64,000 bases of DNA from Gallionella sp. (GTDB taxonomy: Bacteria > Pseudomonadota > Gammaproteobacteria > Burkholderiales > Gallionellaceae): contig JAUXOL010000004.1 in NCBI GenBank assembly GCA_030682375.1, positions 124,001-188,000 on the forward strand. The letters run 5' to 3'. The notes under the pieces were generated by a model that was given only the letters and a program-made list of their open reading frames with translations, did no database searches and was not told the DNA's origin. Position 1 is the stretch's first letter, and the number at the start of each line of letters is the position of its first letter. A program made the position numbers and the translations under genes. Positions 25,635 to 54,359 of the stretch are shown here, piece by piece.

Positions 25635-25706
25635 GTAGGGGCGCGATTCATCGCGCCCTGATCCGTTCAAATATTAAAAACCGGGCGCGATGAATCGCGC
25701 CCCTAC
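25635..25706. repeat. Palindromic repeat (gtaggggcgcgattcatcgc family), copy 1
   Basis: Near-perfect inverted repeat: gtaggggcgcgattcatcgc at the left, gcgatgaatcgcgcccctac at the right, AT-rich loop between. Second copy at 28777-28846. It separates the DUF269 gene from the CCE_0567 gene and ends two bases before the DUF269 stop. Confidence 0.9.
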
Positions 25707-25707
25707 A

Positions 25708-26169
25708 TTACATTCCCGCGACTTCGGGATATTTGCTTACGCTGGACAGCGCGACCGACAGCACCTTGTCCGCCTCGTCCTTCATTTTCGACAGGCTCTC
25801 GTAGCCGTAGCGGTGTACGTCGCGCAGGGTCTTGTCCATCACCACCAGTTTGCCGACGGTGATGACCGCGCGACCGAAACCCTCGTGGGTGATGTTGATC
25901 ATCGGCACGGCCATCTGCCCGCATTCCTTCTCGATCAGGGAGGCGATGGCGTTGTAGAACGCCTTGATGCGTGCAAGCAGGATCTCGTCCGGATCGCCGA
26001 TCACCGGCATCTCGCGGCGCTGCTCCTTGGTCACCACATAGGGCGCGAGGATGCGTTCCACCGGCCAGCCGTCGTAAGTGCCGTAACTGTCGATGGCGCG
26101 CATCTGCTTGACCATCTCCTGGATGAAATCGGTGGACAACAACGGATCTGCTGCGACTGCCTGGTTCAT
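25708..26169 (-). CDS. NifX-associated nitrogen fixation protein (DUF269)
   Basis: 153 residues with the family features QMRAIDSYGTYDGWPVERIL and THEGFGRAVITVGKLVVMDK. Proteins of this family are always found with nifX and are thought to help FeMo-co trafficking. Start at 26169 has an AAGGAGA site. Confidence 0.9.
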   Translation of the reverse strand: MNQAVAADPLLSTDFIQEMVKQMRAIDSYGTYDGWPVERILAPYVVTKEQRREMPVIGDPDEILLARIKAFYNAIASLIEKECGQMAVPMINITHEGFGRAVITVGKLVVMDKTLRDVHRYGYESLSKMKDEADKVLSVALSSVSKYPEVAGM

Positions 26170-26191
26170 GGTGTTTCTCCTTGTAAATTGA

Positions 26192-26233
26192 CCAACCCTC
26201 TCCCCTACCCCTCTCCCGCAAGCGGGAGAGGGG
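26192..26233. repeat. ccctctccc palindromic repeat between DUF269 and rseC-like genes
   Basis: Reads ccaaccctctcccctacccc then tctcccgcaagcgggagagg. The tight hairpin ctctcccgcaagcgggagag would fold strongly. The same repeat type, interrupted by another element, lies inside nifN near 28198-28290. Confidence 0.8.
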
Positions 26234-26240
26234 ATAGAGC

Positions 26241-26657
26241 TCAGAAACCTTCTTTCTTTTCTGCAACGATCTGCGGCGCCCATCCCGACCAGCGCCCCAG
26301 CAAAAATCCCGCCGCCATACCGTTCGCCGCCCCCAGCACCGCACCGATGTCGCCCAATCCCAAGGCGGCGGCGATGCCTGCCCCGACCAGCGCCAGCACA
26401 GTCGGCAGCAAGTAAGCCAGCAGCCCGGCCTTGAGCAGGTCGCCCTCGCTCATGTGCAACTGCAATTCGTCGCCCGCTTGCACATTCGCGTCGCATGGCA
26501 CTTCGATAGCCTTGCGGTTGTGCGAAAAATACTTGCCCAGTCCGGACACGCCGCAACTGCTTTTCGACGCGCAACCGCCGCAGCCGGACTGGGCGGTCGG
26601 TTCGACCTGCGCCCTGCCGTTGTCGGCGGAGACTACGCGGACGGGCGCGGAGATCAT
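26241..26657 (-). CDS. RseC/MucC-like membrane protein, nif-linked paralogue
   Basis: 138 residues. N-terminal cytoplasmic part with the cysteine motif CGGCASKSSCGVSGLG, then two adjacent membrane helices (GLLAYLLPTVLALVGAGIAA and a second ending AAGFLLGRW). This is the RseC architecture. RseC and Rnf act together to reduce SoxR in enteric bacteria, so a copy inside a nif/rnf region suggests a partner for Rnf assembly or function. A second copy sits in the rpoE operon at 55794. Confidence 0.85.
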   Translation of the reverse strand: MISAPVRVVSADNGRAQVEPTAQSGCGGCASKSSCGVSGLGKYFSHNRKAIEVPCDANVQAGDELQLHMSEGDLLKAGLLAYLLPTVLALVGAGIAAALGLGDIGAVLGAANGMAAGFLLGRWSGWAPQIVAEKKEGF

Positions 26658-26671
26658 TTCAAATCTCCCTC

Positions 26672-26834
26672 GATACGGCGCTTTGCGCCTACTCGGGACG
26701 AACGGTTCGAAGTACCCGGCATGTCGATCAAATCTGACCGTTCGCCCTGATAACCAGCGACTTGCCAGCTTGCTGGCTTAGTCGAATGGCTAGTAGCTTC
26801 ATCAGTAGCCCGCAGAGCGGGCGTATCGAAGGGA
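26672..26834. repeat. Composite repeat region between rseC-like gene and nifX
   Basis: Contains a ctcgatacgg...gggacgaacgg unit, then a gttcgccctga...gtatcgaagg unit that has been split by the 54-base element at 26751-26804. Rejoining the flanks gives the same intact unit seen in mirror image at 40266-40306. Confidence 0.75.
26751..26804. repeat. 54-base mobile palindromic element, copy A
   Basis: Begins taaccagcgacttgccagct and ends with gtagcttcatca after an inner tgctggcttagtcgaatggc. It interrupts another repeat exactly, leaving its two halves. Copies or relatives: 28217-28270 (inside nifN), about 41071-41130 and about 54160-54205, the last two in inverse orientation. Confidence 0.8.
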
Positions 26835-26859
26835 TGTGCACTTCCGGAACACTGGCTGA

Positions 26860-27273
26860 TCATTCCTGCCACTCCTCGTCCTCGGCGAAGCTCTTTTCAC
26901 CCGACTGCTTCTTCAGGTGCTTCGCCAGCCACAGCGGCGGCTCGTTCGTCAGGCTCTGCTGCAGGCCGGACAGCAGTTCGTCGATGAGCGTGCCTTCGTC
27001 CACGCGCATCGGCTGGATGCCCCCGGCCAATAGCTGCTGGATCGCGGACGCGCCCGCGGCATTGCAATACACCGCCGCGCAGTCGCCCAGCAGCTCTACC
27101 TTGGCGGCGAGCTTGCCCTCGTGTCCGTCCATCGCGGTTTCGATGAACTCGGCCACTTCGATCAGGCGTGTGTCGCGCTCGCCCAGTTCGTAGATAGCGA
27201 ACGCCCCGGCCGCACCGAAGTGCTGATCGACCGCGCGGCGGTCGCTGGTCGCAAAAGCGATCTTCACTTTCAT
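26860..27273 (-). CDS. nifX: NifX, FeMo-co carrier protein
   Basis: 137 residues starting MKVKIAFATSDRRAVDQHFG, the typical NifX opening with the conserved HFG motif; the middle shows LGDCAAVYCNAAGASAIQQL. NifX binds NifB-co and FeMo-co precursors and passes them to NifEN. Start at 27273 has an AAGGAGA site; a longer frame into nifN is spurious. Confidence 0.93.
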   Translation of the reverse strand: MKVKIAFATSDRRAVDQHFGAAGAFAIYELGERDTRLIEVAEFIETAMDGHEGKLAAKVELLGDCAAVYCNAAGASAIQQLLAGGIQPMRVDEGTLIDELLSGLQQSLTNEPPLWLAKHLKKQSGEKSFAEDEEWQE

Positions 27274-27283
27274 CGCATTCTCC

Positions 27284-28759
27284 TTAATGGGTTTGACCAG
27301 CCGCAGGTGTCGCATTTTTCGAATCGCGTTGGTAGATGGAGACATATGGAGCGGTCTCGTGATGTCCGTGCTCCACCAGCAGGTTGGCGAGGTCGAACAA
27401 GGCCTGGCGCGTGCCGCGATACCCGACCCACAGGCGCTGGTAGCCACCGAGCAGGTCGTACTGCGGGAACCCCGCGCGAAGCAGCGGCACGCCGAGACGG
27501 CGCGCGGTCTCCACCGCATGCGAGTTGCTGATGACGAGCTGCGCACCGTTCTTCGCGGCGGCGATTTCCAGGTCCTCCAGATCGCCGATGGCTACCTGGG
27601 CTGCGGCCACGCTTTGCAGGATGTTGGCGCGCGCCGGGGCGACCGCGGCGACCACTTCGCCGCCCATCTCGGTGACCAGACGCGCGTAACCGTAGAGCAG
27701 GTCCGGATCGGCGGCGATGGCCACGCGCATGAAGCCGAGCATGAAGTGCGCGTCCACCATCGCATCCTGCAACTGCGCGCGCTGGCGCTCGATCTTCTCC
27801 GGCACCGGCTTGCCGCTGATGTCGGCCAATGCCTTGACGAAAGCATCCACCGCATCCAGCCCCATCAGGCAATCGAAGCGGTGATCCGGAACGCCGGTCT
27901 GCTCCTTCAGGAAATCCGCCGCATCGAACAGCGAGTTGCCCAGCACCAGCGTGGCGATGGATTCGCCCATGCTGGCGATGTCGGTGACAGGCGTGCCGCC
28001 CAACGTCAGCGGGCTGCTTTCCATCTCGGTGAGATGGCCATCGAGCGAATCGCCGATGTCCGGCAGAACCAGCGGGCGCAGGCCGAACGTCTCGACCAGT
28101 TCCTTGATGTGTTCGATATCTCCGGGCGTGAGGAAGGAACCGGCCAGCACGTTGACCTGCTTCTTGCGTCTACCCACATTGCTTTTCGCGTTTGCCCCCT
28201 CTCCCGCTTGCGGGAGATAACCAGCGACTTGCCCGCTTGCGGGCTTAGTCGAATGGCTAGTAGTTCCATCAGGGTTGGGGAGAGGGAGCATCGTTTCCAG
28301 CGTCGCCTTCACCGCCAGCGCATAACCGCTCTCGAGGCAGCCCGTGAAATCGGGCGTATTCACCGGCACCACGGGGATATGTGCGAACTCGGGATGGGCA
28401 GCGTAAAACTCCTTCACCAGCCGCTTGATGTCCGTGCCCTGCGTCTCCGACAGCCCGGTGGTCGGCAGGCCGATCAGCGCGGGCTTGCTCTTCTCGCACA
28501 CCGCGCGCAGCCCCTCGATCACATTCTCATCCGCGCTCATCACCGTGGACACCTGATCCATCGCCGTGGTCTGCAACGGGATGGGCTCGCGGAAGTGGCG
28601 CACGAAGAACACCTTGCCGAACGCGGTGCAGCCCTGCGAGCCGTGCATCATCGGGATGGCTTTGTTGATGCCGAGGAAAGCCAGCGACGCGCCGACCGGC
28701 TGGCTGGCCTTGAGCGGATTCACCGCGAGCGCTTTGTTGCGTTTCAGGATCTCAGCCAT
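27284..28759 (-). CDS. nifN: NifN, FeMo-co scaffold beta subunit, carrying an in-frame repeat insertion
   Basis: 491 residues, homologous to NifK; partners with NifE as the scaffold on which FeMo-co is completed. Key stretches: [50 protein letters not shown] and [16 protein letters not shown]. Between the last of these and ETMLPLPN lies a foreign-looking stretch, [18 protein letters not shown], which is exactly the translation of the 54-base element at 28217-28270, followed by [11 protein letters not shown] from a ccctctccc repeat. The frame stays open, so the protein should still be made with a surface loop. About 30 residues longer here than I would expect. Confidence 0.93.
28217..28270. 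repeat. 54-base mobile palindromic element, copy B, inside nifN
   Basis: Same element as at 26751-26804 (ataaccagcgacttgcccgc ... gtagttccatc), same length. It is inserted into a ccctctcccgcttgcgggag repeat that itself lies within the nifN frame. Its length is a multiple of three and it has no stop in the nifN frame. Confidence 0.85.
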
Positions 28760-28776
28760 GTCATCTCGATTCGTCT

Positions 28777-28846
28777 GTAGGGGCGCGATTCATCGTGCCC
28801 TGATTTTCAATCGTCAGAATCCGGGCGCGATGAATCGCGCCCCTAC
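28777..28846. repeat. Palindromic repeat (gtaggggcgcgattcatcgc family), copy 2
   Basis: Inverted repeat with arms gtaggggcgcgattcatcg and cgatgaatcgcgcccctac and an AT-rich loop, filling most of the gap between nifE and nifN. Confidence 0.9.
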
Positions 28847-28873
28847 CAACACCGTGTCGAATAACATTCATCA

Positions 28874-30280
28874 TCACGCCCCCAACTCCACACCCGGCAC
28901 ACCCGTCTTCGCCCACGGCGCAGGCTTGCGCACCGCGCCCCACACCGGGCTCTGCATCGTCAGCGCGAGCTGGCGCGCGAGTTCGGTCATACCGCTATAA
29001 CCCTCGTAACCGAATTCGCGTTCCTGGTTGATGTCGAGGAAAGGGATGCGCGCCTTCAGCGCGGTGTACATGTTGCGGCCGCCCGCGATGAGGATGTCGG
29101 CCTCGTATTCCTTCACCGCACCCAACAGCGCCTTGGGGCTGCCGTCGGTGATCATGCGGGTCTTGTCGCCCATGATCTCGCGGATGCGCGCCTTGTCTTC
29201 CTCGGTGGATTTGTTGGTGCCGGTGGCGACGACTTCCAGCCCGAGGTCCTGCAGCGCGGAGACTATGGACCACGACTTCACGCCGCCGGTGTAGAGCAAT
29301 ACGCGCTTGCCGCGCAGTTTTTCTCTCCACGGATCGAGCGCGGCATTGATCTTCGCCTCTTCGCGCGCTATCAGCGCTTCGGTGCGTTCGGTCAAAGACG
29401 GATCGTTGAGCAGCTTCGCGAATTCGCGGAATGCCATCGAGGTGTCGGTCACGCCGTAGAAGCTGCCCTCGAAATACGGCGTCTTGTAGTCGGTCTGCAG
29501 CTTGCGCGCGACGTTGAGCAGCGCCTTGGCGCACACCACCATATTGGCTTCGGCGCGATGCATGGTCTGCACCTCGCGGAAGCGCGCATCGCCGGACAGC
29601 GTGCACAGGATGCGCAAACCGAGTTCGTCGAACAGCGGCAACACGTTCCAGAACTCGCCCGCGATGTTGTATTCGCCGATCAGGTTCACGTCGTGCACGG
29701 TGATGCCGGGGCGTTGCGATTCCGGCGGAACAGGCAACGGTTCCGCCGTGCCCACCACATACTTGAACATGGCCTCGCCCGCGATGCGGTTGCCCAGATT
29801 CTTGGTGCCGTAGAAACCGGCGCAGTCCACCGGCACCACCGGCACGCCGCACTTCTCGGCGGCGGCCTTGCTCACCGCGCCGATGTCGTCGCCGGTGAGC
29901 GCGGGTACGCAGGTGTTGTAGACGAACACGGCGTTGGGGGAATAACTGTCCACCGCCTGCTTGATCGCATGGAACAGCCGCTTCTCGCCGCGCCCCATGA
30001 TGACGTCCTGTTCGGTGAGATCAGTGGTCATGCCGATGCGATACAGCGTCGGCCCGGAAGAGCGCGTGCCGCGGTTGTCCCACGAACTGCCCGCACAGGC
30101 GATAGGGCCGTGCACGATGTGCGCCACGTCGGCGATGGGCAACAAGGCGATCTGCGCCCCGTCGAACGAGCAGCCGCCCGCCGTCGCCCCGGGCTTGGGT
30201 CGCGCACAACCGGATTTCTCCTTCTTGTTGTGCTCACAGGCCGGTTCGTTCAGCAGTTCGGCGATGTCCTTGGCTTGCAT
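28874..30280 (-). CDS. nifE: NifE, FeMo-co scaffold alpha subunit
   Basis: 468 residues, homologous to NifD. Shows [53 protein letters not shown] and the NifD-like [20 protein letters not shown]. Start at 30280 ([20 protein letters not shown]) is the standard NifE N-terminus; the longer open frame upstream covers the promoter. First gene of the nifENX operon behind a sigma-54 promoter. Confidence 0.96.
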
Positions 30281-41070: not shown

Positions 41071-41130
41071 GATATAACAACTAGCCATCCGACTAGGCTG
41101 TCAAAAAACGACAGCCAAGTCGTTGGTTAT
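41071..41130. repeat. 54-base element family, copy C (inverted), with adjacent palindrome
   Basis: ctagccatccgactaggctg ... agccaagtcgttggttat corresponds to the reverse of the element at 26751, with a different central loop. It is followed at about 41148-41180 by ccgttcatggttcgacaagc / ccacgaacgg, a second palindrome. Both fill the gap between nafY and the ferredoxin gene. Confidence 0.7.
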
Positions 41131-54000: not shown

Positions 54001-54359
54001 CTAAATAAAACGCCTGAACCGGCTAGTTCGCAAAGCGCGAATTCTAGCCGATTTGGGCGTGGTTCGCTGAACCGTGAACGGAACCTCGAAGAACCGTAGC
54101 GAGCGGCTTGAGTGCAAGCCTGTCCTGAGCCAAGTCGAAGGAGCGCACGGAGCTTTGCATGGCCATTCGACTAAGCTGGCAGACAACACCAGCCAAGTCG
54201 CTGGTCAGCGCAGCGACCAAGACATACCTTGTGGGTAGGCGCGGAAGCGAGCACCGCGCAACGCCGCGAGCGAATGGGTGGCGGCAAAGCCGCCGGGCAC
54301 CCACCGGCCCACCCCTTGCGGGTGAATCGAGCCGCGCAGTAGGTTATTCAAGGTTTCCT
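54001..54359. repeat. Repeat-rich gap between mucD and lepA
   Basis: About 360 bases with no gene. It holds several inverted repeat pieces (gaacggaacctcgaagaacc, gcctgtcctgagccaagtcg aagg) and a relative of the 54-base element. The lepA promoter must lie here; none is clear. Confidence 0.6.
54160..54205. repeat. 54-base element family, copy D (inverted, divergent)
   Basis: gccattcgactaagctggca then caccagccaagtcgctggtc matches the two halves of the reversed element at 26751, with a different loop. Confidence 0.65.

Follow-up and report, generated by a model that had tools for sequence, protein, structure and literature searches.

The window, that is, the whole stretch of 64,000 nucleotides of Gallionella sp. 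DNA analyzed here, contains a nifN gene whose reading frame runs through two nested repeats (Table 1). The inner one is a 54-nucleotide element that lies in frame and adds 18 codons exactly where the original prediction had placed it. It splits a second in-frame repeat, of the CCCTCTCCC type, and once it is removed from nifN the flanks read CCCTCTCCCCAACCCTCTCCCGC..GCGGGAGAGGG. The further claim that the nested insertions leave the frame open holds over the full length of the gene. The element is matched within the window with an E-value of 4.2e-24, well outside what chance would give, by model R1, which we built from the copies of the window's genome, the nifN copy included.

Table 1. Features of the window (positions are those of the window; R1 is the model of the element)
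Feature	Position	Strand	Remarks
nifN	27284..28759	minus	491 amino acids, no stop; frame open across both repeats
54-nt hairpin element in nifN	28217..28270	+	18 codons, translated from the minus strand
CCCTCTCCC-type repeat, first part, split by the 54-nt element	28197..28216	.	
CCCTCTCCC-type repeat, second part	28271..28286	.	uninterrupted in nifN of G028 and G064
Second element copy, intergenic	26750..26803	+	splits a TTCGCCCTGAG..TCGAAGGG-type repeat (about 26737-26749 and 26804-26833)
60-nt element copy	41071..41130	minus	splits a CCTTCGAC^AGGCTCAGG-type repeat; model R1
Partial element match	54162..54204	minus	model R1; tail GGCCATGCA, second subfamily

A second, identical copy had been reported at 26751-26804. 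This copy exists one base away from that place, and it is 93% alike to the nifN copy over 57 nucleotides rather than identical. Two of the differences pair with each other within the stem (GCCCGC/GCGGGC versus GCCAGC/GCTGGC). The block of 199 nucleotides containing the intergenic copy and its host repeat (26659-26857) is missing at the corresponding place of a related genome (G058), where the flanks abut. Repeats of the GTAGGGGCGCGATTCATCGCGCCC type occur at positions 25635-25706 and 28777-28846 of the window, and the same type flanks a Y1 transposase gene of the window's genome (L026).

To follow nifN in relatives, we relied on the 20 of 121 genomes with a NifN match at an E-value of 1e-40 or lower. 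The linker that hosts the insertions is readable in 12 genomes of the genus, including that of the window, and a thirteenth (G008) has a short linker in a diverged NifN. An in-frame CCCTCTCCC-type repeat is present in the window's genome, G064, G028 and G038; the linker repeat is shorter or decayed in G022, G063 and G027; and the linker is short and free of this repeat in G058, G023, G039, G024 and G053. Among the 12 genomes, only that of the window carries the 54-nucleotide element. In G028, the repeat is unbroken at the site where that of the window is split, while the NifN of G058 shares 94% identity with that of the window and yet has neither repeat nor element. Relatives therefore preserve nifN with the repeat alone or with neither insertion, which, together with the empty place of the intergenic copy in G058, bears out the claims that the element is mobile and that it is nested in another repeat. 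The expectation that residues would be missing from NifN where the repeats are missing is also borne out, both in the five short linkers and in Azotobacter.

The best solved relative of the window's NifN is the Azotobacter protein (3pdi_B, E-value 1.7e-179). The alignment pairs residue 159 with residue 159 and residue 192 with residue 162, so that the window's NifN has 32 residues where Azotobacter NifN has 2. In a structure prediction of middling quality (mean pLDDT 63.3, 14 sequences), residues 165-197 have pLDDT values below 50 and lie between the end of a helix at 157 and the start of a strand at 201; in this model they behave as a disordered loop would. With its frame open and the rest of the protein conserved, NifN is probably still functional. 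We propose that a CCCTCTCCC-type repeat would first have entered a variable, probably disordered linker, and that the element would then have landed in the repeat.

The search of the genome for further copies, suggested in the original prediction, returned 28 R1 matches at E-values of 0.001 or lower; the divergent copy L024 of this genome was excluded from the model. Aligned by their ends, which are fixed, the copies of the window's genome are 54 or 60 nucleotides long. One end reads ATAACC and the other mostly CATC or CACC, followed nearly always by AG or AA. What had been described as a palindrome is indeed a hairpin, but an imperfect one with a single-stranded tail of about 11 nucleotides, a nearly fixed foot and a covarying middle stem. 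In 13 copies of the window's genome, we counted 10 two-sided changes in the stem, compared with a mean of 3.9 after shuffling; one of the five covariation measures applied to these copies, the number of further pair types, was no higher than in the shuffled sets. The covarying stem is also seen on 106 and 116 distinct sequences.

The element is concentrated in one genus. Of 73 genomes of the genus, 71 have R1 matches, compared with 1 of 48 other genomes; some of the 71 are represented by one weak match (G028 and G067, E-values near 1e-4), and per-genome counts near 46 stand for at least that many. In wider draws, the figures were 28 of 399 genomes (13 of 158 genera) at the level of the order and 2 of 274 at that of the class, the window's genome being one of the two. 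In an exact-pattern scan that covered named genomes, the labels, taken as given, of the 80 stretches listed out of 118 are mostly Gallionella, Sideroxydans, Ferrigenium, Gallionellaceae and Nitrosomonadales, with a few Sulfuricella, Sulfuricaulis and Gammaproteobacteria. The element had no match in the plasmid and phage search. Two IMG/VR contigs labelled as viral bear one copy each (L265, L266).

Two variants of the element were also encountered. In genus g67 (L283, L284), both sides of the foot are altered (TAAGC with GCTTA), and the ends are unchanged; this paired change hints at a co-evolving enzyme. A second subfamily has the hairpin core in common and a different tail (TTTGCAT side). It comprises L464-L471 (G268 and G233), G039 loci such as L253 and L256-L263, and the partial match of the window; in L466 and L470 it forms tandem units of 49 nucleotides. 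Copies at contig ends of G268, considered as the possible end of an IS, belong to this subfamily and were rejected as such.

We gathered 346 distinct copies from 2.0 Mb of collected DNA to define where the element inserts. Allowing for a shift of up to 2 nucleotides, 344 of them start after YT, a dinucleotide that occupies about 0.106 of single positions, and 324 of the 344 precede C or G (CT^C 192, CT^G 81, TT^C 33, TT^G 18, CT^A 13, CT^T 7). The length of the copy is divisible by three in 318 of 344 cases. The insertion sites are themselves repetitive. At the first 199 sites, the joined flanks recurred at least three times in the collected DNA in 117 cases, compared with 45 of 995 YT^S control positions nearby and 22 of 995 far away, the loci being mutually non-independent and the controls being drawn from those same loci. 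The split motif was of the CCCTCTCCC type at 79 of the 199 sites (30 and 44 of 995 in the two sets of controls), of the TTCGCCCTGAG type at 33 (72 and 74), of the CGTCATTCC type at 9 (19 and 10), of the RAYT-REP type at 7 (6 and 8) and of the element's own family at 4 (3 and 1), with 67 others. Insertion of the element into itself takes place at ACT^AGCC (L036, L051, L124 and L133), and in L133 the nesting is apparently three deep.

We then asked what moves the element. The window's genome has three Y1 transposase genes, and the REPs beside them are others than the 54-nucleotide element. A Y1 match is present in 63 of 76 genomes of the genus, and R1 applied to the best-scoring Y1 loci (33 and then 30 loci from genus and order, each with flanks of up to 1.5 kb) returned no full copy and one weak partial match. 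No Y1 match was found in G039, which is a single contig, or in G041; G039 has 34 element matches at E-values up to 0.1, 30 of which are below 2e-5. In 1.28 Mb of collected DNA, we detected neither a pair of ends around a gene nor a longer form with both ends, and the isolated halves are nested, diverged, interrupted or second-subfamily copies, plus some chance matches within genes. Among the gene clusters listed, no mobility gene stands out as a recurrent neighbor.

A lagging-strand bias is typical of single-strand transposition. By local GC skew, 109 of 214 loci have the lagging-template orientation, so that the bias does not appear to be general. In G039, the sequence starts at dnaA and the GC skew changes sign within the interval from 1.30 to 1.43 Mb, which contains one of the copies. 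Here the orientation is found in 19 of 25 hand-sorted main-type copies (P-value = 0.015) and in 22 of all 34 matches (P-value = 0.12). A further clue comes from the stray pairs of the stem. With one fixed foot pair left out, the CT strand shows 88 A.C and 12 G.T pairs, 32 of the 88 A.C deriving from one pair of doubtful pairing. Since these stray pairs are wobble pairs on the other strand, the plus strand (ATAACC..) is likely the folded one. This is at odds with the conserved target, which lies 5' on the CT strand; IS200-type elements have their conserved target on the 5' side.

We consider it probable that the element is a REP-like, non-autonomous hairpin that is moved in trans as a single strand and lands in repeats. 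One strand would form the stem-loop and the free tail of about 11 nucleotides, and a trans-acting enzyme would cut and join precisely after YT on the other strand, with a preference for the interiors of short repeats; the target shows no duplication apart from what may be a single T. The anatomy of the element and the cleavage of hairpin DNA at CT by known TnpA_REP enzymes (PMC8266576) lead us to infer a candidate HUH-type (IS200/RAYT-like) enzyme. The missing link between the element and any of the Y1 genes tested may instead suggest a miniature of a double-strand transposon (DDE MITE) or of a REP-targeting element of the IS110 type. REPs are indeed known targets of ISs, with insertions described for five families, IS110 and IS3 among them (PMC1525189). 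We regard this origin as unlikely, as neither terminal inverted repeats nor a target duplication (one ambiguous T at most) can be read from the aligned copies and joined flanks, as the 1.28 Mb yielded no longer form delimited by both ends, and as a covarying hairpin better fits a folded single strand.

Compared with known systems, the element resembles REPs and IS200-type mini-elements in its mode of action, and yet it lacks the GTAG tag, the RAYT linkage and the hallmarks of MITEs. GTAG- and CGTC-tagged REPs are, like the element, short high-copy hairpins, some of which lie inside other palindromes or in frame within genes, often repair genes, and for the CGTC type, too, no transposase is known (PMC3733652). 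The element differs from both in its 54 to 60 nucleotides with fixed ends, in its YT target and in the common occurrence of uninterrupted copies of the repeats that it splits. There is no GTAG 5' of the hairpin, which starts one base from the plus-strand 5' end and has GTNG on its 3' side, nor a CGTC tag at either end, these being ATAACC and CAYC. With the REP/RAYT (TnpA_REP) system, the element shares a conserved mismatch near the foot of the hairpin, an adjoining four-base motif and CT at the cut (PMC8266576); relative to that description, the motif is on the opposite side of the hairpin, and in the 63 Y1 loci tested no RAYT gene has a full copy beside it. Hairpin, one-sided fixed target and absence of duplication are IS200/IS605-type features, and a related Y1 transposase with the same ends was not found at the best-scoring Y1 loci. 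IS1397, IS621 and ISPpu9 also insert precisely within REPs, but they are whole ISs with a transposase (PMC1525189), whereas the element is gene-less and inserts into several repeat families. Rickettsia palindromic elements are likewise in-frame palindromic inserts in functional protein genes (PMC3733652); they belong to other bacteria and, by their description there, are set apart from the element, which is nested in second repeats. In the literature searched, a body of text outside which most subscription journals lie, we found neither this element family nor REPs of Gallionellaceae, and none of the papers listed in a wider search named Gallionella or Sideroxydans.

Many copies reside within genes. 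For 86 of the 346 copies, the surrounding reading frame runs for 200 codons or more without a stop and leaves 50 or more codons to either side of the element; only copies in open frames are counted here, and the number therefore says nothing of how often genes are destroyed. We compared 70 ORF references, picked from 74 plus 100 covering ORFs, with Pfam. After hand sorting, 47 were inside a gene (46 copies), 16 were upstream or unclear and 7 had no Pfam match; L209 and L371 are the same copy by sequence, as are L124 and L415, and L042 was counted as in-gene with only about 32 codons following the element. Together with NifN, this gives 47 copies in recognizable genes. Repair and recombination genes account for 13 of them: MutS (3, one of which in the window's genome), MutL (2), the RecB/AddA type (5), PolA, UvrD and PriA. 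The others include MetRS (2), IleRS, CysRS, MoeA (2), GlnE, PurL, ACR_tran (2), AMP-binding (2), the 3-hydroxyacyl-CoA dehydrogenase type (2) and histidine kinases (2). One frame, which encodes a hydrophilic linker, is used by 40 of the 46 in-gene copies. Damaging insertions would presumably be lost, and copies may persist in genes because nearly all of them have a length divisible by three and because a hydrophilic linker peptide results in one of the frames. As the insertion is shared by many genes, the case of nifN bears less on FeMo-co assembly than on the repeat family: nifN is not special as a target.

To evaluate the share of repair genes, we used as a control 30 element-free ORFs of at least 560 amino acids, 24 of which had a Pfam match. 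Two of these (MutL and PolA), or three if an SMC_N match of uncertain meaning is added, are repair genes. In ORFs of this length, repair genes represent 13 of 29 with the element and 2 of 24 (P-value = 0.005) or 3 of 24 (P-value = 0.016) without it, with Pfam E-value thresholds of 1e-5 and 1e-10, respectively. Counted by gene family, the proportions are 6 of 20 and 2 of 23 (P-value = 0.12) or 3 of 23 (P-value = 0.26). The excess of repair genes among in-gene copies is thus no more than suggestive.

MutS was found in 35 of the 41 genus genomes searched, and we aligned 30 sequences, that of the window's genome included. Many of them (L013, L485-L513) have in-frame inserts at two hot spots, where at least three repeat families can be recognized by reading. 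Repeat-derived inserts at one or both sites occur in 15 of 30 sequences and in none of the 30 control segments (maximum 16 hits) at a cut-off of 20 repeat hits, which was set after the counts were known; a cut-off of 3 was dropped because 20 of the 30 control segments passed it too. The element itself is carried by four of these MutS sequences, namely that of the window's genome, L494, L497 and L508. Between them it occupies two sites and is read in three frames, an argument in favor of independent insertions.

Both the proportion of in-gene copies that lie in repair genes and the MutS inserts would also be expected if insertions in mutS, mutL, polA, uvrD, priA and recB-like genes were adaptive, that is, kept because they change repair and produce mutator or tunable states. 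In-frame REPs that are frequent in repair genes were reported for other REPs by Di Nocera et al. in 2013, who proposed the mutator idea (PMC3733652). We find an adaptive origin improbable: the excess fades when gene families are counted, copies of related genomes are not independent, and tolerant linkers are abundant in large multidomain proteins.

It is very hard to credit that the element is immobile and that its copies go back to an ancient regulatory hairpin or structured RNA dispersed as repeats recombined, since, even if covariation of the stem suggests a selected structure and REPs may serve as RNA elements (PMC3733652), insertion is required by the precision with which numerous unrelated types of repeat are split at a single dinucleotide, by self-nesting and by lineage-specific presence, and Rfam 15 returned four matches at E-values up to 1 in positions 26000-29000 of the window, none of which overlaps either copy.

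Beyond a REP-like hairpin moved in trans, a bolder possibility, which we hold to be doubtful, is that this gene-less hairpin of 54 to 60 nucleotides is moved by an enzyme of a new kind that targets hairpin or cruciform DNA regardless of the repeat family. Short repeats would then act as a landing network that gives the hairpin in-frame access to genes, and the hairpin would repeatedly reshape proteins of mismatch repair and recombination.

The order from gene to repeat to element makes the nifN locus a readable history of in-frame insertion, with empty and half-filled sites preserved in relatives. The target rule and the covarying hairpin provide a defined substrate with which to find the enzyme. 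The inserts in mutS and recB-like genes take up the question, raised in 2013 (PMC3733652), of tolerance versus adaptation. Overall, the family represents a large natural set in which to follow how essential proteins acquire peptide linkers from short mobile DNA.
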